Counted from the first letter of the stretch, positions 6,611-62,467 are shown. The stretch: DNA of 64,000 bases from a virus (IMGVR_UViG_3300049215_000481:1-64000), one strand, 5' to 3'. Notes: generated by a model not told the origin, from the sequence alone. Numbers and translations: made by a program.

Positions 6611-6619
6611 CATAGCGAA
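6611..6619 (-). promoter_or_regulatory. CGCTAT element before the phosphoribosyltransferase
   Basis: TTCGCTATG, 8 bases before the ATG at 6602. Confidence 0.55.
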
Positions 6620-6770
6620 AGTCGCTACGATTCCATGCGGACGCCCCGGTGGCTCAGTCAGCGTTCGGGGGTGGCCACAACTTGGCCACATTTCGTGTCA
6701 TCGGATGGCATCTCTGGCCACATTTTCGATGAAAAAGCGGGGGACGAAGTGCGCATTTCCCGCAGAAATC

Positions 6771-6815
6771 TGGAGCCGGTGGACAGGATTGAACTGTCGA
6801 CCTACGGTTTACGAA
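6771..6815 (-). other. attP core: 3' half of a tRNA-Thr(CGT)
   Basis: Read on the minus strand this is exactly half a tRNA: anticodon loop TTCGTAA (anticodon CGT), the 3' anticodon stem strand ACCGT, a 5-nt variable loop, a perfect T-arm GACAG-TTCAATC-CTGTC, the acceptor strand CACCGGC, a U discriminator and CCA. The 5' half is absent. Integrase 1 starts 94 bases away. Phage attP sites often reproduce the 3' half of the host tRNA gene used as attB, so integration into a host tRNA-Thr is predicted. Confidence 0.8.
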
Positions 6816-6820
6816 GGCGA

Positions 6821-6837
6821 GTTACAGGTTCTGTAAC
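6821..6837. promoter_or_regulatory. Palindrome GTTACAG-N3-CTGTAAC, candidate operator
   Basis: Perfect 7-bp inverted repeat between the attP core and the integrase gene. The same half-sites recur with a 4-base spacer at 13666-13683, and a single GTTACAG lies just before the integrase ATG (6900-6906). A repressor or excisionase site is possible. Confidence 0.35.
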
Positions 6838-6871
6838 ATAGTGTAGGCACTTGTTTTCAAGAACCTACGTA

Positions 6872-6877
6872 TTGACA
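6872..6877 (+). promoter_or_regulatory. TTGACA -35-like box before integrase 1
   Basis: Consensus -35 hexamer 31 bases before the integrase ATG; no good -10 at the expected spacing (ACAAAG at 17 bp). Confidence 0.3.
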
Positions 6878-6908
6878 CTGGCCAGGTTCTGGCCACAAAG
6901 TTACAGCC

Positions 6909-8102
6909 ATGGCCAAGGCCACCAAGAAGAAGCTGGCATGGGGTGAGGGCTCCATCAGGCAGCGTGGTAACAGGTTCCAGGTCCGCTGGCGAGAGGGCGG
7001 CACGATGCGCTCGGCGTCCGGCTTCGCCTCCAGGTTCGAGGCCCACGAGGAGCTGGAGCGCATCCACGCCCGCCTGAAGCTCGGGCAGCCTGGCGTCGAG
7101 CCCAAGGCGCCGCCGAAGCCCGCGTCGCGCGAGTTCGCCGACCTGCTCGACGAGTGGATCGACTACCGCGTGAAGCACGACAAACGCATGGCGCTGGAGG
7201 AGAGGTCTCGTTGGGCTCTTCACCTGGCCGTGCCACTGGCGACGCAGACCGTGGACACGGTGACATCGAAATGGGTGAGGAACTTGGCAGTGCAGCTCGT
7301 GAAGCCCGAGGTGGGAGACAAGGCGCCCAACGGGAAGAGGAAGGAGCCCATCTCGGGGCCCACGGCCCAGCGCGTGCTCACGCTGCTCTCGTCGTTCTAC
7401 ACGTGGGCAGTCGACGAGGGCATCGCGACCGACAACCCAGCGCGCGCAGCTCTCCGCCACAAGGACGTGAAGAAGCTGCTCGCTTCGAAGCACGACGGGA
7501 AGATGCAGCCCTACCTGAAGAGCTGGGAGCTGGTGACTGCGTTGTACAACGCACTCGCCCCGCCCTACTCGATCGCCTACCTCATCGGTGCGCGCGCAGG
7601 CCTGCGTCCCGGAGAGGTGGTCGCGCTGCAGTGGTCGGACGTCGACTTCGCCGCCGGCACGCTGCTCGTCGAGCGTCAGGTGCGGTCCGGCAAGCTGGGC
7701 CCGACCAAGGGCGGCAGGGCTCGCACGGTGCCGCTCTCGCCGGCTCTCGCCGAGGTCCTGAAGAAGTGGAAGCCGGCCAAGGCAAGGTCCGGGGACTTGG
7801 TGTGCCCGCCGGCCGTCCGCATGAGGAAGAACGGCAAGCCTGGCGCGCGCTACGGCATGTACCTCGGGCCGAAGAGATTCACCACGGCGCTCGCTGCCGC
7901 GTTCAAGGTGAGCGGCATCGCGCCGGGCACTCTGTACCAGTACGGCAGGCACACGTTCGGCTCGCTCACCGCGCTCGGCGGCGTCTCGACGTGGCGCTTG
8001 AAGGAGTGGATGGGGCACCAGGACATCAGCACGACGGAGCGCTACGTGTCGCTGGTCGGCCAGCAGCTCACGCCTGCGGAACTAGTGGCGCTCGGCGGCT
8101 AG
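6909..8102 (+). CDS. int: Tyrosine recombinase, phage integrase 1
   Basis: 397 residues. A basic N-terminal arm-binding region (MAKATKKKLAW, then SIRQRGNRFQVRW) is followed by a SAM-like core-binding domain and a catalytic domain. The box I arginine is in RAGLRPGEV near residue 232, the box II arginine in YQYGRHTF near 345, and the nucleophile in TTERYV near 379. The box II histidine is replaced by Gln, as also in integrase 2. The gene sits beside the tRNA-Thr attP core, so it is the likely enzyme for that site. Its stop overlaps the stop of the convergent gene. Confidence 0.93.
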   Translation: MAKATKKKLAWGEGSIRQRGNRFQVRWREGGTMRSASGFASRFEAHEELERIHARLKLGQPGVEPKAPPKPASREFADLLDEWIDYRVKHDKRMALEERSRWALHLAVPLATQTVDTVTSKWVRNLAVQLVKPEVGDKAPNGKRKEPISGPTAQRVLTLLSSFYTWAVDEGIATDNPARAALRHKDVKKLLASKHDGKMQPYLKSWELVTALYNALAPPYSIAYLIGARAGLRPGEVVALQWSDVDFAAGTLLVERQVRSGKLGPTKGGRARTVPLSPALAEVLKKWKPAKARSGDLVCPPAVRMRKNGKPGARYGMYLGPKRFTTALAAAFKVSGIAPGTLYQYGRHTFGSLTALGGVSTWRLKEWMGHQDISTTERYVSLVGQQLTPAELVALGG

Positions 8103-8293
8103 TCCTTCATGCAGCCGAAGACGAGGTCGGCCGGAGGCTCCTCGCCGAGTTCCTTCTTCTTCGCCGCGAGCGCTTCGTCAGCCTCTGGCACTCCGCACAT
8201 CACCATCATCACGGCGACGCGGCCCTCCATGTTCCAGCGAGGGTCAGCCTTCGACGAGTACCACCAGCTACCAGACTTTGAGAACATCCCCAT
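8099..8293 (-). CDS. Unknown small protein (64 aa)
   Basis: ATG at 8293 (a second in-frame ATG at 8287) behind GGGAG. Met-rich, tail-to-tail with integrase 1. Function unknown. Confidence 0.55.
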   Translation of the reverse strand: MGMFSKSGSWWYSSKADPRWNMEGRVAVMMVMCGVPEADEALAAKKKELGEEPPADLVFGCMKD

Positions 8294-8302
8294 GTTCGCT
8301 CC

Positions 8303-8533
8303 CTACGTCCTCGGAGCCAGCAGAGCCAGGTTGAAGCGCAGCGTCTTGCCGATGCGCCGGTACGGCACCTGGTCGTTCGCCACGTACCGGAGGAGCGTCC
8401 GCGTGCTTACGCCCATGTGCTCGGCAGCCGCCTTGATGTCGACGAGCGGCTGGTGCGCGGCCATCTTCTCCACAGCAATTCGCAGTTCGCGAATCTCGTC
8501 AGCAAGTGTTTCGAGCGTTACAGCGGCTGCCAT
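8303..8533 (-). CDS. Excisionase/HTH_17-like DNA-binding protein (76 aa)
   Basis: The C-terminal ~45 residues (VDIKAAAEHMGVSTRTLLRY, then VPYRRIGKTLRFN) form the winged HTH typical of excisionases and MerR-like HTH_17 proteins. Its position beside integrase 1 suggests a recombination directionality factor or an early regulator. The start lies 8 bases after an ATCGCTATT element with no Shine-Dalgarno, consistent with a leaderless mRNA. Confidence 0.75.
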   Translation of the reverse strand: MAAAVTLETLADEIRELRIAVEKMAAHQPLVDIKAAAEHMGVSTRTLLRYVANDQVPYRRIGKTLRFNLALLAPRT

Positions 8534-8541
8534 GAAGAGGT

Positions 8542-8550
8542 AATAGCGAT
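8542..8550 (-). promoter_or_regulatory. CGCTAT element before the HTH gene
   Basis: ATCGCTATT, 8 bases before the ATG at 8533. Confidence 0.5.
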
Positions 8551-8645
8551 TGTGCTAAGGTCGATTTCCAATTACTGGAGGTCGGAAGCGACCTGTATCG
8601 CGTCGTCGACGCCATGACGGTAAAGAGATGAACAATCTGCGCAGC

Positions 8646-8654
8646 CGCAATCTA
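8646..8654 (+). promoter_or_regulatory. CGCAATC (late-type) element before glycosyltransferase 1
   Basis: CGCAATCTA, 10 bases before the ATG at 8665; the same type as those preceding the tail genes. Confidence 0.5.
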
Positions 8655-8664
8655 TGGCGGCGCG

Positions 8665-9612
8665 ATGCATCTCAACCATGGAATGAAGAACGACAGCACG
8701 CTCCACGTGATCGGAGTCGTGTCCAACCCGTCGAGGTTCCAGAGCAGGGTCAGGCTCGCGCGTGAGTGGATCGCGCGCATGGAGGCGACGGCGAACGTGC
8801 AGCTCCACCTCGTCGAGACCGCGCACGGCGACCACCACCACGAGGTCACGCGCGACTCGCACGCGAACCACCTGCAGCTCCGCACGGACCATGAGCTGTG
8901 GACCAAGGAGTCGATGATCAACCTCGGCATCTGCCACCTGCTGCCGTCCGACTGGCGGTACGTCGCGTGGGTCGACGCCGACGTCTCGTTCTCGAACCCC
9001 GACTGGGCCATCCAGACGATCCACCAGCTCCAGCGCCGGCACATCGTGCAGCCGTGGAGTGAGTGCGTTGACCTCGGGCCCAAGGGCGAGGCGCTGCAGC
9101 TCCACAGGTCGTTCGCCAGCCGCGTGAACGGCGGCCACAAGCTCCCGCTCAACCCGAAGGACCCGTACGCGTTCGGCCACATGGGCTACGCGACGGCCGC
9201 CACGCGCGAGTTCATCGAGAACACACGCGGTCTCATCGACTGGGCCATCCTCGGTGCCGGCGACTCGCACATGGCCTACGCCACGATCGGCAAGGTGGAC
9301 CACTCCATCAACGGCCGCGCGGCCGAGGGCTACAAGCGCCTCGCCCGCGAGTGGCAGTTCCACGCGCACCGCCTGACCAACGGCCACTGGGGCTACGTGC
9401 CCGGCGTCATCCTGCACCACTGGCACGGCACGAAGAAGAGCCGGCAGTACCAGAGCCGCTGGCAGATCCTCGTGGACCACAAGTTCGACCCGACCGTGGA
9501 CCTCGCCAAGGACTCGCAGGGCCTCTACAAGCTGGTGGGCAAGCCGCACCTTCAGGAGGCCGTGCGCCGCTACTTCGACAGCAGGAACGAGGACTCGGTC
9601 GACACCGAGTAG
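8665..9612 (+). CDS. Phage glycosyltransferase (GT-A type)
   Basis: 315 residues with the nucleotide-sugar metal site VDADVSF near residue 104, a Rossmann-like opening (LHVIGVVSNPSRF) and a C-terminal HHWHGTKKSRQYQSR block typical of phage GT-A enzymes. It probably glycosylates a virion protein, phage DNA or a host surface polymer. The ATG at 8665 is used here; 8683 (MKNDST) is an alternative. Unlike its neighbours it is on the plus strand and follows a CGCAATCTA element of the tail-gene type, suggesting late expression. Confidence 0.8.
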   Translation: MHLNHGMKNDSTLHVIGVVSNPSRFQSRVRLAREWIARMEATANVQLHLVETAHGDHHHEVTRDSHANHLQLRTDHELWTKESMINLGICHLLPSDWRYVAWVDADVSFSNPDWAIQTIHQLQRRHIVQPWSECVDLGPKGEALQLHRSFASRVNGGHKLPLNPKDPYAFGHMGYATAATREFIENTRGLIDWAILGAGDSHMAYATIGKVDHSINGRAAEGYKRLAREWQFHAHRLTNGHWGYVPGVILHHWHGTKKSRQYQSRWQILVDHKFDPTVDLAKDSQGLYKLVGKPHLQEAVRRYFDSRNEDSVDTE

Positions 9613-9613
9613 C

Positions 9614-9796
9614 TCAGCGAGCCCGAGCGGCCAACCCCAGGCACATCCCGAGCACTGCGCGGGCGCGCACACGACCGCGCTCTTCGCGACGCCAGCGCAA
9701 CACGCGCAGGTCGTGGAAGACCGTCCAGTACCACCACGGGATGTCCCCGTAGTCGTTCGCCCAGCGCCTCGGCTGGCCAAGGACCATCACCTTCAT
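9614..9796 (-). CDS. Small conserved phage-type protein (60 aa)
   Basis: ATG at 9796 sharing one base with the upstream TGA. Trp-rich N-terminus (RRWANDYGDIPWWYW) followed by basic DLRVLRWRREE, a layout seen in small phage proteins of unknown role. Confidence 0.6.
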   Translation of the reverse strand: MKVMVLGQPRRWANDYGDIPWWYWTVFHDLRVLRWRREERGRVRARAVLGMCLGLAARAR

Positions 9797-9981
9797 CAGG
9801 GAAGCTCGACAACTACGAAAGGCCAGATGTTCGAGGCGAATGCACGCTCGGCCGTGTCCTCAGCCTCTTCGTACGTGTCGAAGGTCGACACGAAAGTGGT
9901 GCCTTCATCGTCCTGGTCGTGCATGAAGTCCGGGCCGTCCGGCGTGGACCACACGACGGCGTACTTTCCTGAGCACTTCAT
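9796..9981 (-). CDS. Unknown acidic small protein (61 aa)
   Basis: ATG at 9981, which overlaps the stop of an 8-codon open frame starting at 10004 (see next entry). Acidic and strand-rich; no family recognised. Confidence 0.6.
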   Translation of the reverse strand: MKCSGKYAVVWSTPDGPDFMHDQDDEGTTFVSTFDTYEEAEDTAERAFASNIWPFVVVELP

Positions 9982-10004
9982 GACTCGCCCGCGATCGTCT
10001 TCAT
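9980..10004 (-). CDS. Possible 8-residue leader peptide MKTIAGES
   Basis: The ATG at 10004 lies exactly 8 bases after a TTCGCTATC element, the spacing seen at many gene starts. It opens an 8-codon frame whose TGA overlaps the ATG of the 61-aa gene (ATGA). The element thus seems placed for the leader, and the main gene would be reached by termination-reinitiation. Purely sequence-based. Confidence 0.4.
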
Positions 10005-10012: not shown

Positions 10013-10021
10013 GATAGCGAA
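10013..10021 (-). promoter_or_regulatory. CGCTAT element
   Basis: TTCGCTATC, 8 bases before the ATG at 10004. Confidence 0.55.
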
Positions 10022-14305: not shown

Positions 14306-14314
14306 GATAGCGAA
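14306..14314 (-). promoter_or_regulatory. CGCTAT element
   Basis: TTCGCTATC, 8 bases before the ATG at 14297. Confidence 0.55.
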
Positions 14315-14804: not shown

Positions 14805-14813
14805 GATAGCGAT
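14805..14813 (-). promoter_or_regulatory. CGCTAT element
   Basis: ATCGCTATC, 8 bases before the ATG at 14796. Confidence 0.5.
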
Positions 14814-17141: not shown

Positions 17142-17150
17142 TTCGCTATC
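17142..17150 (+). promoter_or_regulatory. CGCTAT element
   Basis: TTCGCTATC, 22 bases before the ATG at 17173, with CGGAGG between. Confidence 0.55.
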
Positions 17151-17172: not shown

Positions 17173-17298
17173 ATGCAGCTCAAGACCGTCGTCACGAAGA
17201 CCAGCACCGAGAACTCCTCGGCCGATCTCGAACCCCGCGGGTACGCCATCGTCGCCGCGGGCCAGGGCAGGCGCGGATTCGCTATCGGCTCTACATGA
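17173..17298 (+). CDS. Small unknown protein (41 aa)
   Basis: ATG at 17173 with a good CGGAGG site. The last codons coincide with the next TTCGCTATC element and its TGA overlaps the next ATG. No homology recognised. Confidence 0.45.
   Translation: MQLKTVVTKTSTENSSADLEPRGYAIVAAGQGRRGFAIGST
17278..17286 (+). promoter_or_regulatory. CGCTAT element inside the 3' end of the 41-aa frame
   Basis: TTCGCTATC, 8 bases before the ATG at 17295. Confidence 0.55.
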
Positions 17299-17732: not shown

Positions 17733-17741
17733 TTCGCTATC
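17733..17741 (+). promoter_or_regulatory. CGCTAT element
   Basis: TTCGCTATC directly after the preceding TGA, 21 bases before the ATG at 17763, with CGGAGG between. Confidence 0.55.
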
Positions 17742-18215: not shown

Positions 18216-18224
18216 TTCGCTATC
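18216..18224 (+). promoter_or_regulatory. CGCTAT element
   Basis: TTCGCTATC overlapping the preceding TGA stop, 19 bases before the ATG at 18244, with AGGAGG between. Confidence 0.55.
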
Positions 18225-18816: not shown

Positions 18817-18825
18817 TTCGCTATC
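18817..18825 (+). promoter_or_regulatory. CGCTAT element
   Basis: TTCGCTATC, 8 bases before the ATG at 18834. Confidence 0.6.
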
Positions 18826-19857: not shown

Positions 19858-19866
19858 TTCGCTATT
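19858..19866 (+). promoter_or_regulatory. CGCTAT element
   Basis: TTCGCTATT, 8 bases before the ATG at 19875. Confidence 0.55.
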
Positions 19867-20809: not shown

Positions 20810-20818
20810 TTCGCTATC
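20810..20818 (+). promoter_or_regulatory. CGCTAT element
   Basis: TTCGCTATC overlapping the preceding stop, 8 bases before the ATG at 20827. Confidence 0.6.
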
Positions 20819-21207: not shown

Positions 21208-21413
21208 TGCTCGCCGTCTACGTCGTCGTGGGCTTCCTCGTGTTCGGCATCGCGGCGCTGCTGTGGATGCTCTTCATCAACTCCGTCGGCGGGGACCTGA
21301 ACATCGCGTTCGCGCCCTGGATGCTCTTCTGCGTCGTCTGCTGGGGGATCGCGTGGGTCGCGAAGCAGCCGTTCCGCGCGATTCGCTATCTGGCCTCCAG
21401 GAGTAACCGATGA
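21207..21413 (+). CDS. Small two-helix membrane protein (68 aa)
   Basis: TGATG-coupled to copy 2. Two hydrophobic helices separated by a short loop, basic C-terminus inside. The next gene's TTCGCTATC element lies within its last codons. Confidence 0.65.
   Translation: MLAVYVVVGFLVFGIAALLWMLFINSVGGDLNIAFAPWMLFCVVCWGIAWVAKQPFRAIRYLASRSNR
21382..21390 (+). promoter_or_regulatory. CGCTAT element inside the 3' end of the membrane gene
   Basis: TTCGCTATC, 19 bases before the ATG at 21410, with CAGGAG between. Confidence 0.55.
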
Positions 21414-22090: not shown

Positions 22091-22099
22091 TTCGCTATT
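22091..22099 (+). promoter_or_regulatory. CGCTAT element
   Basis: TTCGCTATT, 8 bases before the ATG at 22108. Confidence 0.55.
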
Positions 22100-23023: not shown

Positions 23024-23032
23024 TTCGCTATC
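23024..23032 (+). promoter_or_regulatory. CGCTAT element
   Basis: TTCGCTATC, 8 bases before the ATG at 23041. Confidence 0.6.
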
Positions 23033-23598: not shown

Positions 23599-24275
23599 CT
23601 CCCGTCCTGTTTCTCGACTTCGACGGCGTCCTCAACGGCCAGTCGAACAAGGTTGAGCCGCCTCTAGTTGCGCTGCTCAACCAGATCGTCGAGCAGTCCA
23701 GGTGTGACGTCGTCGTGTCGTCCGCCTGGCGCATCGACGGGGTCGAGCGCCTGCAGGTGGTGTTGAGCAACGCCGGCTACACCGGCACTCTGCGCGATGT
23801 CACCCCGAGTGGCGGCTGCACCGAGCACTTTGACCGCGGGTGGATCTGCAGCGAGGCGCACCGCGGGTTCGAGATCCTGGAGTGGCTCCGCACCAACTAC
23901 CCCGACGGGGTCTTCCCTCCGATCGTCTGTCTCGACGACTCGTCTGACCTGCACCCATTCCTCGACCGGCACGTGCACACACGCTCGTACGTCGGACTGG
24001 AGGACCGGCACGTCGCCGAGGCGCTCCAGATCTTGTCCGAGCCGATGGACCCGTTCTGCACGGGCTGCTGGGCGCAGATCGACCCCGATACCTGCGGGTG
24101 TGGCGACTCCCTGAAGTACCACGGCAGTTGTTTGACCGCCGGCCACTCGTTCGTCCCAATGGGCTGCAACTGCCTCCGCCCGAAGAGGCCCGACTGCGCC
24201 GAGTGCGAGAACAAGCGCTTCATCCAGCGCATGTGGGACAAGACGCCCTGCTACTCGTGCGTGAAACGCTATTAG
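23595..24275 (+). CDS. HAD-like hydrolase, RNA-repair (SAK) type, with Cys-rich tail (226 aa)
   Basis: Begins with the HAD nucleophile motif FLDFDGVLNG, followed by VVVSSAWR (motif II Ser) and CLDDSSD (motif IV acids). This compact layout matches HAD domains linked with Swiss-army-knife RNA repair proteins, and related HADs of phages. The last ~70 residues add many Cys pairs (CTGC, CGCG, CNC, CAEC, CYSC), probably zinc sites. A role in phosphate removal from RNA ends is inferred. Confidence 0.75.
   Translation: MTPVLFLDFDGVLNGQSNKVEPPLVALLNQIVEQSRCDVVVSSAWRIDGVERLQVVLSNAGYTGTLRDVTPSGGCTEHFDRGWICSEAHRGFEILEWLRTNYPDGVFPPIVCLDDSSDLHPFLDRHVHTRSYVGLEDRHVAEALQILSEPMDPFCTGCWAQIDPDTCGCGDSLKYHGSCLTAGHSFVPMGCNCLRPKRPDCAECENKRFIQRMWDKTPCYSCVKRY
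24265..24273 (+). promoter_or_regulatory. CGCTAT element (variant)
   Basis: AACGCTATT at the end of the HAD gene, 10 bases before the ATG at 24284. Confidence 0.45.
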
Positions 24276-24668: not shown

Positions 24669-24677
24669 TTCGCTATG
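24669..24677 (+). promoter_or_regulatory. CGCTAT element
   Basis: TTCGCTATG overlapping the TAG stop, 8 bases before the ATG at 24686. Confidence 0.55.
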
Positions 24678-24685: not shown

Positions 24686-25357
24686 ATGGGCGCGCGAAGA
24701 CTCCGCAACCTCATCCACCACGCCGCCAGCGCGCACCTCTGCCTGGTGCCGCTGTCGCGTGAGGGCTTCTACGCCGTCGTCGACAAGATCGACGCGCCGT
24801 ACGTCGCGCAGTACAGGTGGGCGGTCAAGCAAGACCACAAGGCGTTATACGCCAAGACGGTCATCGACGGACACCACGTCCTCCTGCACCGCTTCATCTG
24901 GGCGCTGCACGCACGGCCGGAAGCGCGTCTCATCGACCACAAGGACGGCGACGGGCTCAACAACCAGTTGAGCAACCTGCGCGCGGCGTCCACCTTTCAG
25001 AACACGGCCAACCGAGGCGACAGTGCGCTCTCGTCGAGTGGCATCCGCGGCGTCGCACTCCGCAAGGGGTTGTGGCGAGTGCGCCTGAAGCAGAACGGCA
25101 AGGAAGTGCACGTCGGCTACTTCCGCCGCAAACGCGACGCGGTCCGCGCGCAACCGAGCAGCACGCGCTCTGCACGGCGAGTTCGCAAGAACACATTCGC
25201 TATGGGCCCCACATGTCGAACAAACAGCTCATGGTCGCCGACGTCAACGGCGTGGTCCACGACATCGCGATCACCGAGTACGCCGACGGCGCTCCTCTCA
25301 TCAAGCAGCGCATCGACCTCAACGAAGCACGCATCCTGTTCCGCCCGAACTCGATGA
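24686..25357 (+). CDS. HNH homing endonuclease with AP2-like domain, C-terminal frame disrupted
   Basis: Residues ~60-100 hold the HNH core HHVLLHRFIWALH, IDHKDGDGLNNQLSNLR, with AASTFQN linking to an AP2-like strand region (GIRGVALRKGLWRVRL, VHVGYFRRKRDAV). At about 25150 the expected ending (RAARALHGEFART) lies in another frame; the annotated frame runs into the next gene until 25357. A short deletion is likely, so the true protein should end near 25200. Confidence 0.65.
   Translation: MGARRLRNLIHHAASAHLCLVPLSREGFYAVVDKIDAPYVAQYRWAVKQDHKALYAKTVIDGHHVLLHRFIWALHARPEARLIDHKDGDGLNNQLSNLRAASTFQNTANRGDSALSSSGIRGVALRKGLWRVRLKQNGKEVHVGYFRRKRDAVRAQPSSTRSARRVRKNTFAMGPTCRTNSSWSPTSTAWSTTSRSPSTPTALLSSSSASTSTKHASCSARTR
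25196..25204 (+). promoter_or_regulatory. CGCTAT element
   Basis: TTCGCTATG, 8 bases before the ATG at 25213. Confidence 0.55.
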
Positions 25358-26049
25358 AGGAGTTCGTCGCGGCGATGTTCTGGTGCGACGCAATGGACGA
25401 GCGGTACGACGGGTACCCTCATCTCGTCCTGCCCTTCGTGCCCGGCGCGCGCCAGGACCGTCTCAACGACGAGGGCGACGCGCTCTTCACGCTCAAGAGC
25501 GTCGCCAAGATGATCAACGAGCGGTCGTTCGCGTCCGTCACGGTTGTCGACCCCCACTCGTACGTCACGCCGGCACTCATCGACCGCTGCATCGTCATCC
25601 CGGCCGTCGACTGCATCCAGTCGTACACGCGTAGGATCGCCGGCGTCGTGTCGCCCGACGCGGGCGCCGAGAAGCGCGCCAGCTCCATCGCGAAGTTCTT
25701 CCACGTGCCGCTCTTCCACGCCTGGAAGAGCCGCGACATCGAGACGGGCGCGATCACCGGCTTCGGCGTCGAGGAGTCGATCAGCGAGCTGCGCGGCAAG
25801 CGCGTCCTCGTGGCGGACGACATCTGCGACGGCGGCGGCACCTTCGTCGGCCTCGCCGACCAGCTCGACGCCCACGGCGTCGCGGCCGACCTCTACGTCA
25901 CTCACGGTCTCTTCACGCAGGGAACGGCGCGGCTCAAGAGCCGCTTCCGCCACGTGTGGACGACCGACTCCGTCCTCAACAACGCCACGGGCGTCGACGT
26001 CATGCGCGTCTGCGAGCGCCTGCTCTTCCAACCCTCTCTGAAAGGCTGA
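25213..26049 (+). CDS. Ribose-phosphate pyrophosphokinase-like protein (Prs/Adps type, 278 aa)
   Basis: Two tandem PRTase-like domains as in PRPP synthetases: LVLPFVPGARQDR (ATP/flexible region), TVVDPHS, and the PRPP loop VLVADDICDGGGTF near residue 200. In cells Prs makes PRPP from ribose 5-phosphate. In some phages the homologue paired with a NAMPT-like enzyme converts ADP-ribose to ADPR-pyrophosphate for NAD+ rebuilding (NARP1). The NAMPT-like gene follows 7 bases downstream, so that pairing is present here. Confidence 0.88.
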   Translation: MSNKQLMVADVNGVVHDIAITEYADGAPLIKQRIDLNEARILFRPNSMKEFVAAMFWCDAMDERYDGYPHLVLPFVPGARQDRLNDEGDALFTLKSVAKMINERSFASVTVVDPHSYVTPALIDRCIVIPAVDCIQSYTRRIAGVVSPDAGAEKRASSIAKFFHVPLFHAWKSRDIETGAITGFGVEESISELRGKRVLVADDICDGGGTFVGLADQLDAHGVAADLYVTHGLFTQGTARLKSRFRHVWTTDSVLNNATGVDVMRVCERLLFQPSLKG

Positions 26050-26056
26050 TCCGCAC

Positions 26057-27541
26057 ATGAACCTCTCTCCTCTGACCCGCAGCGCACTCCAGGCCGTCAC
26101 GCGCATCGACGGCTACAAGCTGGACCACCGGCGGCAGTACCCGAAGAACACCACCCGCGTCTACTCCAACTGGACCCCGCGCGGCACCCGCGTCGAGGGC
26201 CAGAAGAAGGTCGTCGCCCTCGGCACCCCGTTCCTGGTCCAGAAGTACCTGGTCGAGGACTTCGAGCCGTTCTTCGCGGCCAACATCGACGAGGTGTGCG
26301 CGGCCTACGAGGCCCGCGTCAACGGCTACCTCGGCCCGAACTCGATCGGCTCGGACCACATCCGCGCGCTGCACGCCCTCGGCTACCTGCCGCTGGAGAT
26401 CCGCGCGCTGCCCGAGGGCACGCACGTCCCGCTGCGCATCCCGATGGTGACGGTCGAGAACACGCACGACGACTTCGCGTGGCTCGTGAACTACTTCGAG
26501 ACGCTCATTTCGAGCGTGCTCTGGATGCCGTCGACGTCGGCCACCTCCGCGCTCCGCGTGCGTGAGGTCCTGGAGGACGGCGCGCGTCTCACCGGCTCAC
26601 CGCTCGGGTTCGTCGACTGGCAGGGGCACGACTTCTCGTTCCGCGGCATGCTGCTGCCCGAGGGCGCGGCGCTGTCGGGCGTCGGCCACCTGCTCTTCTT
26701 CACGGGCACCGACACGCTGCCCGCGATCGACCTCATCGAGCAGTACTACGGCGTCCCCGAGGGCTACCTCATCGCCGGCTCCGTCGCCGCGACCGAGCAC
26801 TCGGTCATGTGCGCTGGCGGCAAGGAGGACGAGCGCGCGACGTTCGAGCGCCTGCTGGAGCTGTACCCAGAGGGGATCGTCTCGGTCGTCTCGGACACGT
26901 GGGACCTCTGGAAGGTCCTCACCGAGATCCTGCCGTCGCTCAAGGACCGCATCATGGCCCGCAACGGCAAGCTCGTCATCCGCCCCGACTCGGGCAACCC
27001 CGCGGACATCGTCTGTGGTGACCCGAACGCGCCCGAGGGTTCGCCCGCTCGCAAGGGCGTCATTGAGCTGCTCTGGGAGACGTTCGGCGGCACAAAGACG
27101 GACCTCGGCTTCAAGGTGCTCGACTCACACATCGGCTGCATCTACGGCGACGCCATCACCCGCGACCGCGCCAAGGAGATCATCGAGCGCCTCGCGGCCA
27201 AGGGCTTCGCGTCCTGCAACATGGTGTTCGGCGTCGGCTCGTTCACCTACCAGTTCGTCACGCGCGACACCTACTCCTTCGCGATGAAGGCGACGTGGGC
27301 CATGGTCGACGGCGAGGGCCGCGACCTGTTCAAGTCGCCCATCACTGACAAGGGCGAGAAGAAGAGCGCCAAGGGTCGCCTCGCGGTCCTGCGCGACGAG
27401 AACGGCGAGCTGTACCTCGTCGAAGGCGCGACGCCCGAGCAGGAGGCCGCGTCGCTCCTCCGCGTCGTTTGGCGCAACGGCCAGTTCCTCGTGCGCGAGA
27501 CGTTCGACGTCATCCGCGCCCGCGCGCAGTCCGAGCGCTGA
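26057..27541 (+). CDS. Nicotinamide phosphoribosyltransferase-like protein (NAMPT/Namat type, 494 aa)
   Basis: Full-length NAMPT fold. DGYKLDHRRQYP opens the protein, DWQGHDFSFRGM and GVGHLLFFTGTDTLPA line the substrate channel, ATEHSVMCAGG carries the conserved catalytic His, and VIRPDSGNPAD the phosphate-binding Arg/Asp. It would join nicotinamide to PRPP (giving NMN) or, in the NARP1 pathway, to ADPR-pyrophosphate (giving NAD+ directly). No NMN adenylyltransferase is visible here, which slightly favours the second. Confidence 0.92.
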   Translation: MNLSPLTRSALQAVTRIDGYKLDHRRQYPKNTTRVYSNWTPRGTRVEGQKKVVALGTPFLVQKYLVEDFEPFFAANIDEVCAAYEARVNGYLGPNSIGSDHIRALHALGYLPLEIRALPEGTHVPLRIPMVTVENTHDDFAWLVNYFETLISSVLWMPSTSATSALRVREVLEDGARLTGSPLGFVDWQGHDFSFRGMLLPEGAALSGVGHLLFFTGTDTLPAIDLIEQYYGVPEGYLIAGSVAATEHSVMCAGGKEDERATFERLLELYPEGIVSVVSDTWDLWKVLTEILPSLKDRIMARNGKLVIRPDSGNPADIVCGDPNAPEGSPARKGVIELLWETFGGTKTDLGFKVLDSHIGCIYGDAITRDRAKEIIERLAAKGFASCNMVFGVGSFTYQFVTRDTYSFAMKATWAMVDGEGRDLFKSPITDKGEKKSAKGRLAVLRDENGELYLVEGATPEQEAASLLRVVWRNGQFLVRETFDVIRARAQSER

Positions 27542-28581: not shown

Positions 28582-28590
28582 TTCGCTATC
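28582..28590 (+). promoter_or_regulatory. CGCTAT element
   Basis: TTCGCTATC, 22 bases before the ATG at 28613, with AGGAGG between. Confidence 0.55.
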
Positions 28591-29242: not shown

Positions 29243-29251
29243 TATAGCGAA
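29243..29251 (-). promoter_or_regulatory. CGCTAT element
   Basis: TTCGCTATA, 8 bases before the ATG at 29234. Confidence 0.5.
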
Positions 29252-31456: not shown

Positions 31457-31465
31457 CGCAATCTT
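31457..31465 (+). promoter_or_regulatory. CGCAATCTT late-type element
   Basis: 6 bases after its end (8 after the CGCAATC core) is the ATG at 31472; no Shine-Dalgarno. Confidence 0.6.
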
Positions 31466-34052: not shown

Positions 34053-34652
34053 GTGCCGCCTAGTAAGTTCGGTTGGAAGTTCAAGGATCTGTCTGGCCAG
34101 CAGTTCGGCCGCCTAACAGTCCTCGCAGAGTGCGGAAGAGACGCTCACGGCAATGTGCGCTGGAAGTGTCACTGCTCGTGCGGCGAGATCAAGGTCATCT
34201 CAGGCGCCAGCCTGAGGCGCGGTCTGACCCGCTCTTGTGGTTGTTTCATCGGAGACTCGCATCGTGAGCGTGCCCAGCTCAAGCACGAAGAGAGCGGAGG
34301 CAGGACTGGGGCGTTCAGACTGCTCGTAAATCAGTACAGGTCTGACGCACGAGATCGCGGACACGCCTGGGAGCTTTCCGACGATCTGGTCGCATCCCTT
34401 ACCTCGGGATGTTGTCGATACTGCGGGAAACCGCCGTCGCAGACTATCAAGTCGCGCAAGCGTCTCTACATCTACAACGGCATCGATCGGGTAGACAACC
34501 GCGTTGGTTACGTACCTGGGAACGTGGTTCCGTGTTGTGGACCATGCAACCGAATGAAGCGAGACATGAGCGCGGACGAGTTCTTCTCGCTGGTATCCGC
34601 CATCTACGAGCATTCGGCCCGGCCGCAATCTTTGGCCATGAACCATGGCTGA
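34053..34652 (+). CDS. HNH homing endonuclease with N-terminal zinc module (199 aa)
   Basis: GTG start at 34053, leaderless-type. Residues 10-70 are the LSGQQFGRLTVLAEC, WKCHCSCGEI, RRGLTRSCGC zinc module. Residues ~120-170 hold the HNH core (CRYCGK, YNGIDRVDNRVGY, CCGPCNRMK). Less GC-rich than its neighbours, consistent with recent insertion between two baseplate genes. Its last codons contain the CGCAATCTT element of the downstream gene. Confidence 0.85.
   Translation: MPPSKFGWKFKDLSGQQFGRLTVLAECGRDAHGNVRWKCHCSCGEIKVISGASLRRGLTRSCGCFIGDSHRERAQLKHEESGGRTGAFRLLVNQYRSDARDRGHAWELSDDLVASLTSGCCRYCGKPPSQTIKSRKRLYIYNGIDRVDNRVGYVPGNVVPCCGPCNRMKRDMSADEFFSLVSAIYEHSARPQSLAMNHG
34624..34632 (+). promoter_or_regulatory. 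CGCAATCTT late-type element inside the HNH 3' end
   Basis: 5 bases before an ATG at 34638 (a 4-codon frame) and 12 before the baseplate-J ATG at 34645. Confidence 0.5.
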
Positions 34653-37600
34653 CACTCCTACGCCGCGCAGTTACCAGCAGGCCCTCGGTGACCTGATCGA
34701 CGCCTTTCTATCGAGGCAGGGACTGAAAAAGCTGCGGGTCGGATCTCCGCTGCTTTCCATCATGGAGGCTGCAGCCCAGAGCGACATGCGTTCGAGCCAG
34801 GACACCTTCGGGCTCCTGAACGCCGTCTCGCTCGACAAGGCCACCGGCCTCGCGCTGGAGCGCATCGGCAACGACGAGAACGTGCCGAAGTACCAGCAGA
34901 GCGCGACGACCGGCACCGTCGACATCTCGGACGCGTCATTCACGAAGAGGGCGACGAAGCTCTTCCAGGGCTCCCCTGCCCCCATCGCGGGCTCGATGAC
35001 CATCGACGTCGTCGACGCCGGCCTGTGGCCCAGCAGCGGCCAGCTCTACATCGGCCGCGGCACGCCCAACTACGAAGGGCCCATCTCGTACACCTCGAAG
35101 GTGAACGCCGGCACGCACTACACCATCACGCTCGCGGCTGGCACGGCCCGGTTCCACAACACGTCCGAGTCCGTGATCCTCGCCCAGGGCGGCAACCGTC
35201 AGATCGGCCAGGGCGTCATCGTCAAGACGCCGCAGGCGAACACGTCGGACGCCGTCGAGTTCACGATCGTCACGCAGCGGACCATCCCCGACGGCGAGAC
35301 CCTCGTCTCGGGCGTCGAGGTCCGCGCGCTGAAGCCCGGCAACATCGGCAACGTCCCGGCGGGCGCCATCAAGGAGTGGTCGGCTGAGCCGTTCGCGGGC
35401 GCGACGGTCACGAACCCCGGCCCCTTCAGCAACGGCCGCGAGACGGAGACGGACGACGACTACCGCGAGCGCATCAAGAACGTGCGGCGCTCTCGCGCGC
35501 TCGGCACGTCGCTCGCCATCACCAACGCAGTCGACGGCATCACGGCCCCAGACGAGAACAAGCGCGTCAGCTCCGCATCGCTCGTGCCGCGGCTGAACCT
35601 CGCCTCCACGCTCTACATCGACGACGGCACCGGCTACGAAGAGAAGCAGGCTGGCGTCGCCATCGAGACCCTGGCGGACTCGGCGGTCGGCGGCGAGCTG
35701 TACTTCGAGACGAAGCAGCGCCCGGTCGCGCGCGCCTTCGCGGTCACGCAGAACTCGGCTCCGTACACCCTGACGCCGGGCGCCCAGCTCGCGGTGAAGG
35801 TCGGCGGACGGACGTTCATGCACACCTTCAACGTGGTCGACTTCGTGTCGATCGCGAACGCGTCGGCCTACGAAGTCGTGGCGTCGATCAACGGCAACCC
35901 CACGATCGGCTTCCGCGCCCGCACGGCCGAGTCGGGCACCAAGGTCGCCCTGTTCGCTGACGTCGACGCGAACGAGGACGTCGAGGTCGTCGCGGCTGCG
36001 TTCAACGACTCGAACCCGGCTCTCGGCTTCCCGCCGGGCATCAACTACACGATGCAGCTCTACCGCAACGACCGCCTCCTGACCAAGGACGGCGTGATCG
36101 CGGCGTTCGTCGGCGAGAACGTCTCGCAGTGGGACTCGGTGAGCGGCTCGCAGACCCTGGTGGTCGCGGTCGACAACACCCCCGCGCAGACGTACGCGTT
36201 CGTCGACCAGGACTTCGTGGACGCCCGCACGGGCTACTCGACGGTCGCGCGCAACACGATTGCCGCATGGTGTGCGGTGATTGAGGCCAAGATTCCCGGC
36301 ATCACGGCGACCGAGGACGCGGGCCGCATCGTGCTCACCTCCACCGCTGGTCCGGCGGCGAAGGCTGCTGTCGAGGTCCTCGGCGGTACCCTGGTCAGCC
36401 ACAAGTTCTTCAGTACGGGCAAGGTCGTGGGCAAGGCTCGCGACTACACGCTCGACCGCAACAACGCGCAGATCCGTCTGGAGCAGCCGCTGCTGGCCGG
36501 CGACAAGCTCACGATCGGCTCACAGTACACCCGCGCGTTCATCGAGTCGGACGTCATCCCTCCGACCTCGATCGGCGGCGTGGCCCGTTTCTGGTTCGTG
36601 ATCGACGGCGACGCCGAGGTGGTGCCCACGGGCGTCACGGGCGGCACGACTCTCGCCATCGCCCCCACGGCGGCCCACCCGAGCGGCAACGTCGTCACGC
36701 TGACGGCGAGCGCCGGCACCCCGTTCGTGAACGCCCGAGCGGGCGACTGGCTCATTACCTGGGACCCGGCCCTCGACGCCTCCATCCAGGGTGCCTTCCG
36801 CATCGCGGAGGCTGCGCCCACCTACCTGCGCATCGAGCGCCGAGCCGGCACCGCCGTCCGCGTCGGTCACCGCGCCGCCGCCCTCCAGGCGTCCGGCGCC
36901 TCCATGTGCAAGGTCCTGATCTGCGGCGGCAGCTACCGCGTCAGCGACATCTACGGCGTCAACTACGGCACGCCCACGGCTGAGCTGTACGACCCGAACA
37001 CGAAGACGTCGACGCCCGTGGCGCCGATGAACTTCGCGCGCACGTTCCACTCGGCGACGCTGGTCCCGAGCGGCAAGGTGGTCGTGGCGGGCGGCTTCGA
37101 CGGCAACGGCAAGCCGGTCAAGGCCATCGAGATCTTCGACCCGGTCGCGGGCACGTGGACCCTCTCGGCGGTCCAGCTCACCACCGGCGTCGGTCACCAC
37201 ACGGCAACCTTGATGGCCGACGGCCGCATCGTGTTCGCTGGCGGCAACGCCGGCACCGGCGGCGCGGTCGACGCGCTCCAGGTGTACGACCCGGTCGCCG
37301 ACACCATCACGGTCGCAGCTCACCTCGTGCACCCGCGTGCGAAGCACAAGGCGGTGCTGATGCCGAACAACGACATCCTGATCGCGGGCGGTTACGACGC
37401 GAGCTTCACGGACCAGGCGACGGTCGAGGTGTTCTCGCACACGACCCTGCTGACGACGGCCGGCATCCACAACATGAACCGCGCGCGCTCGGGCTTCGGC
37501 CTCGCCGTGGTCGGCACGTCGCCCACCAAGGTGATGGCGGTCGGCAACAGGAAGGGCGCGGCTGGCAACAACACCTACGAGCTGTACGACATCGCGGCCA

Positions 37601-46303: not shown

Positions 46304-46312
46304 AGCAATCTT
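46304..46312 (+). promoter_or_regulatory. AGCAATCTT late-type element
   Basis: 9 bases before the ATG at 46322; GGGGAG lies between. Confidence 0.5.
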
Positions 46313-49441: not shown

Positions 49442-49450
49442 CGCAATCTT
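49442..49450 (+). promoter_or_regulatory. CGCAATCTT late-type element
   Basis: 13 bases before the ATG at 49464. Confidence 0.55.
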
Positions 49451-49896: not shown

Positions 49897-49905
49897 CGCA
49901 ATCTT
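49897..49905 (+). promoter_or_regulatory. CGCAATCTT late-type element
   Basis: 14 bases before the ATG at 49920. Confidence 0.55.
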
Positions 49906-52759: not shown

Positions 52760-52768
52760 CGCAATCTT
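52760..52768 (+). promoter_or_regulatory. CGCAATCTT late-type element
   Basis: 3 bases before the GTG at 52772; a second in-frame GTG is at 52778. Confidence 0.5.
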
Positions 52769-53434: not shown

Positions 53435-53443
53435 CGCAATCTT
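53435..53443 (+). promoter_or_regulatory. CGCAATCTT late-type element
   Basis: 15 bases before the ATG at 53459. Confidence 0.55.
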
Positions 53444-56017: not shown

Positions 56018-56026
56018 GATAGCGAA
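56018..56026 (-). promoter_or_regulatory. CGCTAT element
   Basis: TTCGCTATC directly after the upstream TGA, 8 bases before the ATG at 56009. Confidence 0.6.
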
Positions 56027-56946: not shown

Positions 56947-56955
56947 GATAGCGAA
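56947..56955 (-). promoter_or_regulatory. CGCTAT element
   Basis: TTCGCTATC just after the upstream stop, 44 bases before the ATG at 56902. Confidence 0.5.
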
Positions 56956-58806: not shown

Positions 58807-58815
58807 AATAGCGTT
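58807..58815 (-). promoter_or_regulatory. CGCTAT element (variant)
   Basis: AACGCTATT, 10 bases before the ATG at 58796. Confidence 0.45.
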
Positions 58816-58816
58816 T

Positions 58817-59269: not shown

Positions 59270-59826
59270 AGCCCGCGCCGCTCTAGATGCTGCGCCACTT
59301 GTCGCACCCACGTGCAGAACTCCTGAATAGTCATGCTGGCCTTGGCCACATTGCAGCGCCAACACGCCGTTACGCAGTTCGCGGCCGAGTAGCCGTACCG
59401 GCTGTTGACGCGATCGAGGCCGTTGTACAGGTACCTACTGTGCTGCCCGCCATTGATGGCCACCGTGGCCGGTGGAGTGCCACAGTAGAAGCACGGCTGT
59501 GTCGTCAGTTCTCGGAACTGGCGTCTACCAATGCGGAAGCTGAGCCCGCGTCGTCGAGCCGTGTGGCGGTATTTGTTCAGGAGAAGGTTGAAGCCGCTAA
59601 GGCCGGCTGGCTTGCGGCGCCGTCGACCCGCGTCACCAGGCCCCCAACAGCCGCAAGAACGAGAGCCTCCTTGTCGCAAGCTGTAGCCAGCGACGGCCTT
59701 TCGACGTCCACATCGGCATCTACAGTCCCAATACAACGACGCGCTCTTGCTCCGGCGGCCCGCTAACGCCAGAACTGTCCAATGGCCGAACGTACGTCCG
59801 ATGAGATTGATTGGGCGGGCTGGCAT
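59266..59826 (-). CDS. HNH homing endonuclease (186 aa)
   Basis: The ATG at 59826 fits the start of the zinc module (LIGRTFGHWTVLALAG, WDCRCRCGRR, GSRSCGCWG). The HNH core follows (CFYCGTPP, NGLDRVNSRYGYS, CWRCNVAKA). Closely similar in plan to the 34053 enzyme. Inserted between RNA ligase and the C39-like gene, overlapping the latter by ATGA. Confidence 0.85.
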   Translation of the reverse strand: MPARPINLIGRTFGHWTVLALAGRRSKSASLYWDCRCRCGRRKAVAGYSLRQGGSRSCGCWGPGDAGRRRRKPAGLSGFNLLLNKYRHTARRRGLSFRIGRRQFRELTTQPCFYCGTPPATVAINGGQHSRYLYNGLDRVNSRYGYSAANCVTACWRCNVAKASMTIQEFCTWVRQVAQHLERRGL

Positions 59827-59827
59827 A

Positions 59828-60919
59828 TCAGTGCTTCTCGGTGCCGTTCTTCCGCAGCAGGTACGTCTCGCCGACCAGCTTGAGGACGACGCGGCCGAGG
59901 GCCGGGTGCCGGCGCTCCACGACGGGGCGGATGACGATGCCCTCGCGGAAGTGTCCGGCGATCGTGCTCGGACCATCAGAGAGAGGCTCGACCACCGCGG
60001 GGTCGTACGGGCCGCGGTACACGACGGGCACCGTGGGGAGGTCGATGGTGCGGCAGACGGAGACAATGTCGTCGTGGCTGCGGAACTCGCGCGTGGGCAT
60101 GTGCATGATGTCGAAGATGGCGAGCCGGATCTCACCGTCCTTGAGGCCGTACTCCATGTCCTGCACGCCCGAGCCGTACACCTCGCCGTAGAAGGCCACG
60201 TCCGGCCACTTGGCGAGCTTCTCGACCAGGTTGTACTGGCGCGCCGCGCGCCACCAGATGCTGTCGTCCTCGACGGGGCGCATGACCCTGTGCGAGCTGA
60301 CCCATAGCCGCCCCTTCGTGAAGCACAGCGCGGCGTTGCACCCGTGGATCTTCTCGGTCGCGACGATCTCTTCGCCCGGCGTCAGCACCGCCTTGTGCTT
60401 GCGGTAGTGGTTGATCTCGTACACCGGCATGAGGCGCGGGATCGGCTTCTTGACGAGACCCAGCTTCTTGCGCGCCCACGAGACGAAGCGCTGCCACAGC
60501 GTCTTCGGCTTCTTCTCGCGCTGCTCGGGCTGGTACGTCGCCTCGGGCTCCTCGTACTTCGTGATGCCGAGGGCCAGCGACACATCAGTGCCGTCGGGGC
60601 CGTGTCCGGGGGTCGGACCAGGACCAAGCGCTCCGATCGGCACGAGCATGCCCATCGAGAAGATCTGCCGAAGGCGCACTGCCTTGAGGCGGTGCACGCC
60701 GTTCTTGAACTTGAGGTGCGAGCAGTACGTCTTCACCCACTCGCGGTCCTCGGGGATGAGTGACTCGACGGGAATGTAGACGGCGAGGTCGCCCTCCTTG
60801 AAGTCCGTCGTCCTGACGATGACGGGACAGCCCTCTACCTCGGTGATGCTGATGGTGTCGGCGTTCGGGTGCTTCGAGATGGTTCCGAGCTTCACTACCG
60901 GGACGGAGAAATCACTCAT
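59828..60919 (-). CDS. RNA ligase (Rnl5/DRB0094-like, 363 aa)
   Basis: ATG at 60919 (ATGA overlap). The N-terminal ~100 residues form an OB-like tRNA-binding-type domain (VEGCPVIVRTTDFKEGDLAV). The ligase core has motif I EKIHGCN with Lys190, GEVYG (III), EGIVIRP (IV) and LKLVGETYL (V). It would reseal cut RNA, probably nicked tRNA, with ATP. Confidence 0.88.
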   Translation of the reverse strand: MSDFSVPVVKLGTISKHPNADTISITEVEGCPVIVRTTDFKEGDLAVYIPVESLIPEDREWVKTYCSHLKFKNGVHRLKAVRLRQIFSMGMLVPIGALGPGPTPGHGPDGTDVSLALGITKYEEPEATYQPEQREKKPKTLWQRFVSWARKKLGLVKKPIPRLMPVYEINHYRKHKAVLTPGEEIVATEKIHGCNAALCFTKGRLWVSSHRVMRPVEDDSIWWRAARQYNLVEKLAKWPDVAFYGEVYGSGVQDMEYGLKDGEIRLAIFDIMHMPTREFRSHDDIVSVCRTIDLPTVPVVYRGPYDPAVVEPLSDGPSTIAGHFREGIVIRPVVERRHPALGRVVLKLVGETYLLRKNGTEKH

Positions 60920-61023
60920 CGGCCGCGCTTCTTTCGTTTGGGAAGCGGCGGCGCGGGGAGATAGAGCAGGATGATCCCGCCCCCAATGTGCAGCTCTGTC
61001 TTGATGTCGGCCGGTCGCTTCAC
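60916..61023 (-). CDS. Small protein (35 aa) before RNA ligase
   Basis: GTG at 61023, 22 bases after ATCGCTATC. Reads MKRPADIKTELHIGGGIILL, then a basic tail. Its TGA overlaps the RNA ligase ATG, so it couples ligase translation. Confidence 0.5.
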   Translation of the reverse strand: MKRPADIKTELHIGGGIILLYLPAPPLPKRKKRGR

Positions 61024-61045
61024 GGGTTTCTGCTTTCCCGTGTCT

Positions 61046-61054
61046 GATAGCGAT
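61046..61054 (-). promoter_or_regulatory. CGCTAT element before the RNA-ligase unit
   Basis: ATCGCTATC, 22 bases before the GTG at 61023. Confidence 0.5.
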
Positions 61055-61074
61055 TCCGGCCGCTGTTCTCGGTG

Positions 61075-61374
61075 CTAGCTGAAGGCCTTTCGGCAGTGCT
61101 TGCACACGCGACGAACGGAGCCTGCCGGAGTGCTGAACGAGGCGACGTCCGCAGACCCGCACTCGGGACACGTGGGCTGGGACGTCTCGACCTTCTCGAC
61201 GACGTCCGGCGGTTCTTCTGACTCTGGCGTCAGTAGTTTGAGGCGGTCGATTTCTCGACGCAGCCTCTGAACTGTTCTGTGGAGCTGGTGGTTCTCACGC
61301 TTGAGGTCGGCCAGCTCTCTGCTTTTTCGGTCGTCACGGGCGAGGCGGTGTGGCGTCACGCGCTTCACATACAC
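61075..61374 (-). CDS. Coiled-coil plus zinc-ribbon protein (99 aa)
   Basis: GTG at 61374 with CAGGAG directly upstream. Residues ~20-50 form a basic coiled coil (LADLKRENHQLHRTVQRLRR). The end is a C4 zinc ribbon (CPECGS, CKHC). Preceded by the CCTAATCTT late-type element. Confidence 0.65.
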   Translation of the reverse strand: MYVKRVTPHRLARDDRKSRELADLKRENHQLHRTVQRLRREIDRLKLLTPESEEPPDVVEKVETSQPTCPECGSADVASFSTPAGSVRRVCKHCRKAFS

Positions 61375-61385
61375 TCCTGAGTGGA

Positions 61386-61394
61386 AAGATTAGG
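61386..61394 (-). promoter_or_regulatory. Late-type element (CCTAATCTT variant)
   Basis: 11 bases before the GTG at 61374; includes the TAA stop of the upstream gene. Confidence 0.4.
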
Positions 61395-61650
61395 TGGGGT
61401 CCGTCGAGACCACTGCCTCACCCTCCAACACCCAGTTCGAGCCGTTGTGCGTGATGCTGATGCGCTCCGGGTACGCAACACCGCATGAGAGGAGCGCCGG
61501 CTGATCAGCGACCGCCTGAATCAGACCGACGAGCCGCACTCGGGCTTCTTGACTGCCCTGGACGGACGGCTCGTCGTCGATACGAAGGCGGTGACGAGTC
61601 TTTGGGCTCGTCGGGTCGCCGATCTGCACCACTGTGACGGAGCGCTTCAC
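61390..61650 (-). CDS. Unknown protein (86 aa)
   Basis: GTG at 61650 overlapping the upstream TGA. Strand-rich (RSVTVVQIGDPTSPKTRHRL). Function unknown. Confidence 0.6.
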   Translation of the reverse strand: MKRSVTVVQIGDPTSPKTRHRLRIDDEPSVQGSQEARVRLVGLIQAVADQPALLSCGVAYPERISITHNGSNWVLEGEAVVSTDPT

Positions 61651-61859
61651 AGCGACGGGTCGCTGAAGTTGCCGTCTTCGTCCGACGGCTCCGCGTCCTC
61701 TTCCTCGTCGTCGTACGCGTCGGGGTCCTCGTCGACGATCTTCCCCGCCACCTGCGCCGCCACCTCTTCGATCTCGTCAGCGTCCAAGGAGTTCGTGCTC
61801 TCTTCGAGCGTCTCTTCCACGATGGTCTGAATGCGGCTTCGGCTGAGTCCCATGATCAT
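61647..61859 (-). CDS. Acidic-tailed small protein (70 aa)
   Basis: ATG at 61859. Helical N-terminus and a strongly acidic C-terminus (DDEEEDAEPSDEDG), as in DNA-mimic or chaperone-like small phage proteins; no specific function assigned. Confidence 0.6.
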   Translation of the reverse strand: MIMGLSRSRIQTIVEETLEESTNSLDADEIEEVAAQVAGKIVDEDPDAYDDEEEDAEPSDEDGNFSDPSL

Positions 61860-62467
61860 CTTTCCGTTGGTGGGTGTGCGGTCATGTACCGCTGTCCCGT
61901 GTAGAGTTCGAATAGCGATTCATTCAACGGCTCGCCGAGAGCGAATGCCTTCTGCAGCGCGACCTTCCAGAAGTCGAGCGCCAGACGTGCTGCCGGCTGC
62001 GGGATGGCCGACCCCTTCTCGACCTCCACCTCCAGGAAGCGCCTCCCGTCGTTGGCAATCTCGCACAGAGAGACGCAGACGTCGTACGTCCCGAGGTCGC
62101 ACACGCAGTGGTACTTGAAGTCGTGGACGTCACCCTTGCGCAGCGTGACGATGGGGGCCCAGCCCGTCTCGCGCAGGAACGCGTCGACGTCCTCCGGGGT
62201 GGTCTCCGGCCCAAACGTCAGGTCGATCTCGATGCGGTCTGCGGTGCTGTAGTTGCTTTTGCGCTTCTTGACCGTCAGCTCGCCCGCGCCGCCCTTGAGT
62301 CGGTGGCGGACGACGCCAGCCTGTCCGTTGATGTAGTAGACGTCCGTGTGCGATTGCCCGCTGCGGGTCGCGTAGGGTCGCCCCTCCTTGCACCAGTGGA
62401 CGAACGCCTTGGTCGAGACGTGCGTGGCGTCGAACTTGTACTCGATCTCTGAGTGCTTGTCGGTCAT
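61856..62467 (-). CDS. CYTH-domain tunnel phosphatase-like protein (203 aa)
   Basis: ATG at 62467 (ATGA overlap). EIEYKFDA is the EXEXK-type motif, followed by RHRLKG, LTVKKRKS, RIEIDL and FLEVEVEK, the acidic/basic strand residues lining the CYTH triphosphate tunnel. Family members hydrolyse triphosphates (thiamine triphosphate, RNA 5' ends) or cyclise nucleotides. An ATCGCTATT sequence lies within its last codons. Confidence 0.85.
   Translation of the reverse strand: MTDKHSEIEYKFDATHVSTKAFVHWCKEGRPYATRSGQSHTDVYYINGQAGVVRHRLKGGAGELTVKKRKSNYSTADRIEIDLTFGPETTPEDVDAFLRETGWAPIVTLRKGDVHDFKYHCVCDLGTYDVCVSLCEIANDGRRFLEVEVEKGSAIPQPAARLALDFWKVALQKAFALGEPLNESLFELYTGQRYMTAHPPTER
61911..61919 (-). promoter_or_regulatory. 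Possible CGCTAT element inside the CYTH gene
   Basis: ATCGCTATT 52 bases before the next ATG (61859); may be chance. Confidence 0.25.

Follow-up and report, generated by a model that had tools for sequence, protein, structure and literature searches.

The virus record IMGVR_UViG_3300049215_000481 of IMG/VR (169,280 bp, ~65 % GC) encodes a portal protein, a terminase, a tail sheath protein, a DNA polymerase III alpha subunit, a GroEL-like chaperonin, and a B12-type ribonucleotide reductase, and is therefore taken to represent a large myovirus. Its nearest named relative is the Myxococcus phage Mx1 (OR576727, 169,621 bp), with 57 % identity in the major capsid protein and ~45 % in a sigma factor. 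The genome bins that hint at a host (Deltaproteobacteria, Saprospiraceae, and Saccharibacteria) were too mixed to be of use. The window analysed here, that is, the whole stretch comprising bases 1–64000 of the record (64,000 nucleotides, nt), carries many copies of short elements placed at recurring distances ahead of start codons. These fall into two sequence classes, TTCGCTAT (class A) and GCAATCTT (class B), and are discussed in the following as candidate promoters. A home-made caller based on coding potential gave 203 genes in the record and left 14.7 % of it noncoding.

Class A is strongly enriched and sharply positioned. The whole record holds 49 copies of TTCGCTAT, as compared to 1.2 expected from dinucleotide frequencies, and 23 of them have an ATG at offset 8, counted from the ninth base, with no more than three at any other offset. 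An earlier note on the window, which had described one repeated element a fixed eight bases ahead of start codons and proposed this full-genome motif search, would have been contradicted by equal frequency inside genes; instead, 46 of the 49 copies are extragenic (p = 5e-35 at the above noncoding share). In the window, TTCGCTATC with at most one mismatch matched 29 times (8.0 expected; the largest of 100 shuffles gave 15). The composite TTCGCTATC-N8-ATG, again with at most one mismatch, was found 28 times, as compared to none for its reversed control. All 15 starts quoted in the note (including 29234) proved exact, the A of each ATG and the first base of the 9-mer being 17 bases apart. Of these starts, 10004 begins an open reading frame (ORF) of 8 codons, and 24686 and 25213 begin overlapping ORFs. 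The element is thus real but longer than had been reported, with the consensus GATTCGCTATnnG, and five look-alikes with CGCGAT or CGCCAT (31733, 32117, 35850, 41842, and 63833) probably owe their presence to chance. Among the papers listed for the literal 8-mers, none was relevant.

When the ATG is set as the predicted transcription start (+1), the consensus places an A at -18 and TTCGCTAT at -17 to -10, with CGC fixed at -15 to -13 and TAT at -12 to -10, which is the layout of an extended -10 element. Likewise, 30 class A sites have TA at positions -12/-11 relative to the start codon, as in TA-led genes. A G occupies -7 in 50 of 57 sites; downstream of it, positions -5 to -1 form a pyrimidine run, and +1 is a purine. 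The CGCTAT core served as search seed and thus carries no weight in this profile, whereas the flanks (-20 to -16 and -7) lay partly outside the seed and do count. As the note had stated, there is no recognizable -35 box: across -60 to -26 the information content stays at or below 0.13 bit, without any conserved block.

The distances between predicted +1 and start codon are bimodal. Among the 57 class A sites of upstream type, the leader measures 0 nt in 30 and 1–3 nt in eight, 4–8 nt in none, and 9–15 nt in nine; four leaders are longer, one start codon lies at -1, and for five sites no start was found. The 9–15 nt leaders mostly contain a Shine-Dalgarno (SD) sequence that begins at the same predicted +1 (e. 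g., 17733, 18216, 21382, and 28582). Consistent with the claim that the leaderless starts lack an SD, pairing in the 0–3 nt class averages -0.7 kcal/mol and is thus weaker than at random positions (-2.6 kcal/mol; p = 5e-6), as compared to a strong -7.4 kcal/mol for the leadered genes. The longer distance between element and codon in the presence of an SD was likewise borne out (19–23 nt), while that to the SD edge stays fixed. At predicted leadered sites, +1 is a purine and -1 a pyrimidine in 22 of 27 cases each, the +1 purine being partly the SD itself. At the leaderless sites, a leader of 0 nt rather than 1–3 nt is predicted. The class A genes encode, for example, phosphoribosyl pyrophosphate (PRPP) synthetase, an HNH endonuclease, a deoxynucleoside monophosphate kinase, and a methyltransferase, that is, functions of nucleotide and DNA metabolism, and a class A promoter also lies ahead of a helicase–sigma operon (record position 91906).

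The second class had been missed by the earlier note, whose single repeated element corresponds to class A, and so had a sigma factor devoid of a -35 reader. GCAATCTT occurs 30 times in the record (2.0 expected), 27 copies being noncoding, with seven sites in the window and ~20 more elsewhere in the record. Its consensus is CCGCAATCTT, with AAT at -12 to -10, and AATCTT-N6-ATG puts an A at -11, which is the same register as in TATn-N8-ATG of class A; in this phage, both classes moreover share CGCwAT. Class B precedes baseplate and other virion genes. Some elements are arranged as divergent pairs, back to back and only 10–20 bases apart (149938/149948, 126436/126446, and 103505/103525), which leaves no intergenic room for -35 boxes. 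At 70171–70181 of the record, an element of class A overlaps with one of class B (TTCGCTATACGCAATCTT), possibly forming a dual middle/late promoter.

The sigma-70 protein (359 amino acids) is encoded at 93719–94798 of the record. Taken singly, it matches Sigma70_r2 below the Pfam cut-off (17.7 vs. 24 bits) and the PHROG sigma factor at 1e-6, while a profile of 39 members aligns with residues 374–570 of the 617 of RpoD (E = 1.4e-9). Its AlphaFold2 model has a mean pLDDT (predicted local distance difference test) score of 87, and Foldseek ranks sigmaA chains first. The protein keeps regions 2, 3, and 4.1 and ends before region 4.2, the reader of the -35 box, which it should therefore not recognize. 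All 39 homologues likewise end shortly after region 4.1, and no Sigma70_r4 was found in the record. In total, ~75 stretches of viral contigs carry homologues of this sigma factor. The record also gave no match to the RNA polymerase beta' subunit (PF00623), a single-subunit RNA polymerase not having been searched for, and lacking this catalytic subunit it differs from phiKZ-type multisubunit RNA polymerase systems. Sigma homologues of 747–755 amino acids (loci L098, L099, L100, and L101) have twice the usual length and match only at residues 1–230, so that an intein or another insertion is likely.

The relatives considered here are 78 IMG/VR loci (34–69 % GC) found with the sigma-factor profile. 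An unbiased count of 7-mers upstream of their genes was led by TGATATA, CAATCTT, and CGCTATA. In many relatives, [CT]AATCTT lies ahead of a gene of ~327 amino acids before the portal gene, and this gene is leaderless in some of them but has an SD in others. TTCGCTAT is confined to some lineages. In others, TGATATA occupies its slot, and TGATATA-N8-ATG again peaks at offset 8. No locus was found to combine TTCGCTAT and TGATATA, an exclusivity that is not significant (p = 0.09). With the ATG as +1, TGATATA presents TG at -15/-14 and TATA at -12 to -9, a textbook extended -10 element, and class A, class B, and TGATATA all align with an A at -11. The register of TGATATA is the strongest in silico evidence for the start codon as the transcription start. 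In Mx1, [CT]AATCTT is followed by an ATG at offset 6 in six of 41 cases, genes at 36563, 75289, and 121405 being examples with CAATCTT. TTCGCTAT as a class was not seen in Mx1, and the remaining genes have other boxes, the middle and early ones being different. Among these (e. g., at 87509, 88636, and 117701 in Mx1) are early-looking boxes (GGATCTnnnCTAGTATG) with SD-bearing leaders and GATCmACGsmGTA boxes ~11–12 bases before ATG, which may form further promoter classes.

Taken together, it is likely that these elements are -35-independent extended -10 promoters of an Mx1-like myovirus that are fused to start codons and give rise to leaderless mRNAs. The extragenic location, the fixed spacing, the lack of 4–8 nt leaders in class A, and the sister element TGATATA-N8-ATG all point to a -10-type promoter with its start at the start codon, as the note had suggested. 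Presumably, GATTCGCTATnnG and CCGCAATCTT act as single-block extended -10 elements read by the host core RNA polymerase, with transcription starting ~11 bases downstream of the A at -11. For ~38 class A and ~15 class B genes, this start would coincide with the start codon or lie no more than 3 nt from it; the mRNA would then be leaderless, and the ribosome would have to start on a 5'-terminal start codon; in the longer leaders, the SD would often begin at the same +1. Transcript 5' ends are hence expected at the predicted +1 and ribosome starts on the 5' AUG. The late class B promoters, at least, are presumably under the direction of the phage sigma factor. Class A would be early or middle and class B late.

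Several points weigh against this interpretation. A G at -7 is unusual for the -10 hexamer of sigma-70 promoters, and class B is less orderly than class A, with looser spacing (12 of 26 leaders measure 3–9 nt) and a purine bias at +1 that is not significant (12 of 19 cases). The gene calls, moreover, are home-made. Class A is also missing from many relatives that bear the sigma factor, so that the phage sigma possibly does not recognize any class A promoter.

One scenario is a refinement of, and compatible with, the promoter interpretation, and we consider its chances evenly balanced. Here, the host primary sigma factor, helped by a phage factor (as in the systems with gp39 of P23-45 or AsiA of T4), would recognize class A, and the phage sigma would serve class B alone. 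It is class B that accompanies the sigma factor in most relatives, whereas the class A slot varies by lineage (TTCGCTATA, TGATATA, or GATCmAC..TA in Mx1), and this lineage-specific turnover favours another reader or helper for class A. The class A promoter before the helicase–sigma operon is, furthermore, as expected for pre-late expression. However, the CGCwAT core common to both classes in this phage would suit, and favours, one reader for the two. A more far-reaching proposal along this line, in which a single phage sigma without region 4.2 recognizes both classes, the whole Mx1-like clade has fused -35-less promoters to start codons, and a large part of the infection programme relies on leaderless mRNAs that bypass host control via ribosome-binding sites, is offered tentatively and is rather doubtful.

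It is unlikely that the same promoters start 2–5 bases further upstream, with CGCTAT or GCTATC as the -10 hexamer, and thus give very short leaders instead of none. A hexamer centred on GCTATC is conceivable, and in eight class A genes the ATG indeed lies 1–3 nt past the predicted +1. In the TGATATA relatives, however, the extended -10 register is fixed such that +1 falls on the ATG, and both the switch from pyrimidine to purine and the SD edge coincide with that position. Far less probable still is a translation signal, such as a contact with 16S rRNA or the ribosome, which would account for the fixed codon distance in half of the sites. Wherever an SD is present, however, the codon moves away while the distance to the SD edge is unchanged, the element also precedes long-leader sites, and the class A, class B, and TGATATA sequences differ yet keep the promoter register. 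The distance from element to +1 is thus constant and that to the codon is not, which favours a promoter; as the element tracks the SD edge and not the codon, the translation-signal explanation was rejected. An artefact of chance or composition, for which nothing speaks beyond the five look-alikes, is refuted by the copy numbers, the extragenic placement, and the near-zero reversed controls, and its probability is negligible.

Each component of the proposed system has a precedent, while the setting is undescribed. The late promoters of phage T4 (TATAAATA) consist of a -10 element only and are read by gp55, a small phage sigma factor without region 4; they are coupled to the sliding clamp and leadered. 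The T4 gp55 system may thus be likened to the present one in its -10-only promoters and its sigma without region 4, and differs in clamp coupling and leaders. In the Thermus phage P23-45, many transcripts are leaderless, as Berdygulova reportedly described in 2011. Its middle and late promoters belong to the extended -10 class, and in that system gp39 remodels the sigmaA of the host (PMC7403470), whereas the phage described here encodes a sigma factor itself and uses two sequence classes. A further precedent is gp36 of phiEco32, a phage sigma factor without the -35 reader of region 4 that recognizes a single-element middle/late promoter (tAATGTAtA) with a start 6–8 bp downstream (PMC8948821). 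Both systems pair a sigma lacking the -35 reader with -35-less promoters, but the phiEco32 element has another sequence and leaderless translation is not described in the excerpted text of that paper (PMC8948821). Unlike gp36 as portrayed there, the sigma factor found here retains a region 4.1 stub; it would be gp36-like in function. Leaderless bacterial genes of the TA-led type have a -10-like box ~12 bp before the start codon, the TAnnnT of host sigma-70 (PMC3160421), whereas the blocks seen here are longer and phage-specific. Finally, Mx1 (OR576727) shares the late CAATCTT-N6-ATG arrangement, and its genome announcement contains no discussion of promoters (PMC10720576). Pattern scans of viral contigs for both leaderless promoters were not used, since among the matches listed nearly all were single per contig and probably mostly due to chance.

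The elements provide a testable transcription map, derived from sequence only, for a large and almost unstudied clade of phages. It comprises single-base predictions for ~50 transcript starts in the record and for the late promoters of Mx1, which can be grown. The map would also connect promoters that have shrunk to one block against the start codon with a sigma factor that has lost its -35-reading half, and offers a natural matched set of genes, leaderless or SD-led, in which 70S initiation on a 5'-terminal AUG can be studied.

On the minus strand of the window, class A elements are located at 6611..6619 (leaderless, ATG 6602, encoding a phosphoribosyltransferase-like protein of 298 amino acids), 8542..8550 (ATCGCTATT, ATG 8533), 14306..14314 (ATG 14297), 14805..14813 (ATCGCTATC, ATG 14796), 29243..29251 (TTCGCTATA, ATG 29234), and 56018..56026 (ATG 56009). 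The same strand also holds a leadered site at 56947..56955, with the ATG 36 nt past the predicted +1, and the variant AACGCTATT at 58807..58815, with the ATG 2 nt past it. At 10013..10021 (minus strand), the ATG at 10004 opens the above 8-codon ORF (9981–10004), whose stop codon overlaps the next ATG (ATGA), and this leaderless ORF possibly encodes a leader peptide with translational coupling. Plus-strand counterparts are found at 17278..17286 (ATG 17295), 18817..18825 (ATG 18834), 19858..19866 (ATG 19875), 20810..20818 (ATG 20827), 22091..22099 (ATG 22108), 23024..23032 (ATG 23041), 24669..24677 (ATG 24686, HNH endonuclease), and 25196..25204 (ATG 25213, ribose-phosphate pyrophosphokinase), together with the variant AACGCTATT at 24265..24273 (ATG 24284, 2 nt past the predicted +1). 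Leadered plus-strand sites have GGAGG at the predicted +1 at 17142..17150 (ATG 14 nt on) and 17733..17741 (ATG 17763), AGGAGG at 18216..18224 (ATG 18244) and 28582..28590 (ATG 28613), and AGGAG at 21382..21390 (ATG 21410). Class B elements, all on the plus strand, lie at 31458..31465 (GCAATCTT, leaderless, ATG 31472, baseplate-like protein), 34625..34632 (ATG 34645, a baseplate wedge-like protein of 2245 amino acids), 46305..46312 (ATG 46322), 49443..49450 (ATG 49464), 49898..49905 (ATG 49920), 52761..52768 (one or more GTG starts within a few nt), and 53436..53443 (ATG 53459).

Some further features of the record deserve mention. The HNH ORF (24686–25357) runs ~145 bases into the beginning of the PRPP synthetase gene (25213–26049), each having its own class A promoter. 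The latter gene is followed by one for a nicotinamide phosphoribosyltransferase, and both together (25213–27541 in the window) form a phage cassette for the synthesis of nicotinamide adenine dinucleotide. Outside of the window, two ORFs (70879–73128 and 73297–75756 of the record) share the DNA polymerase III alpha sequence between them, the first of which ends with a weak match to intein splicing.

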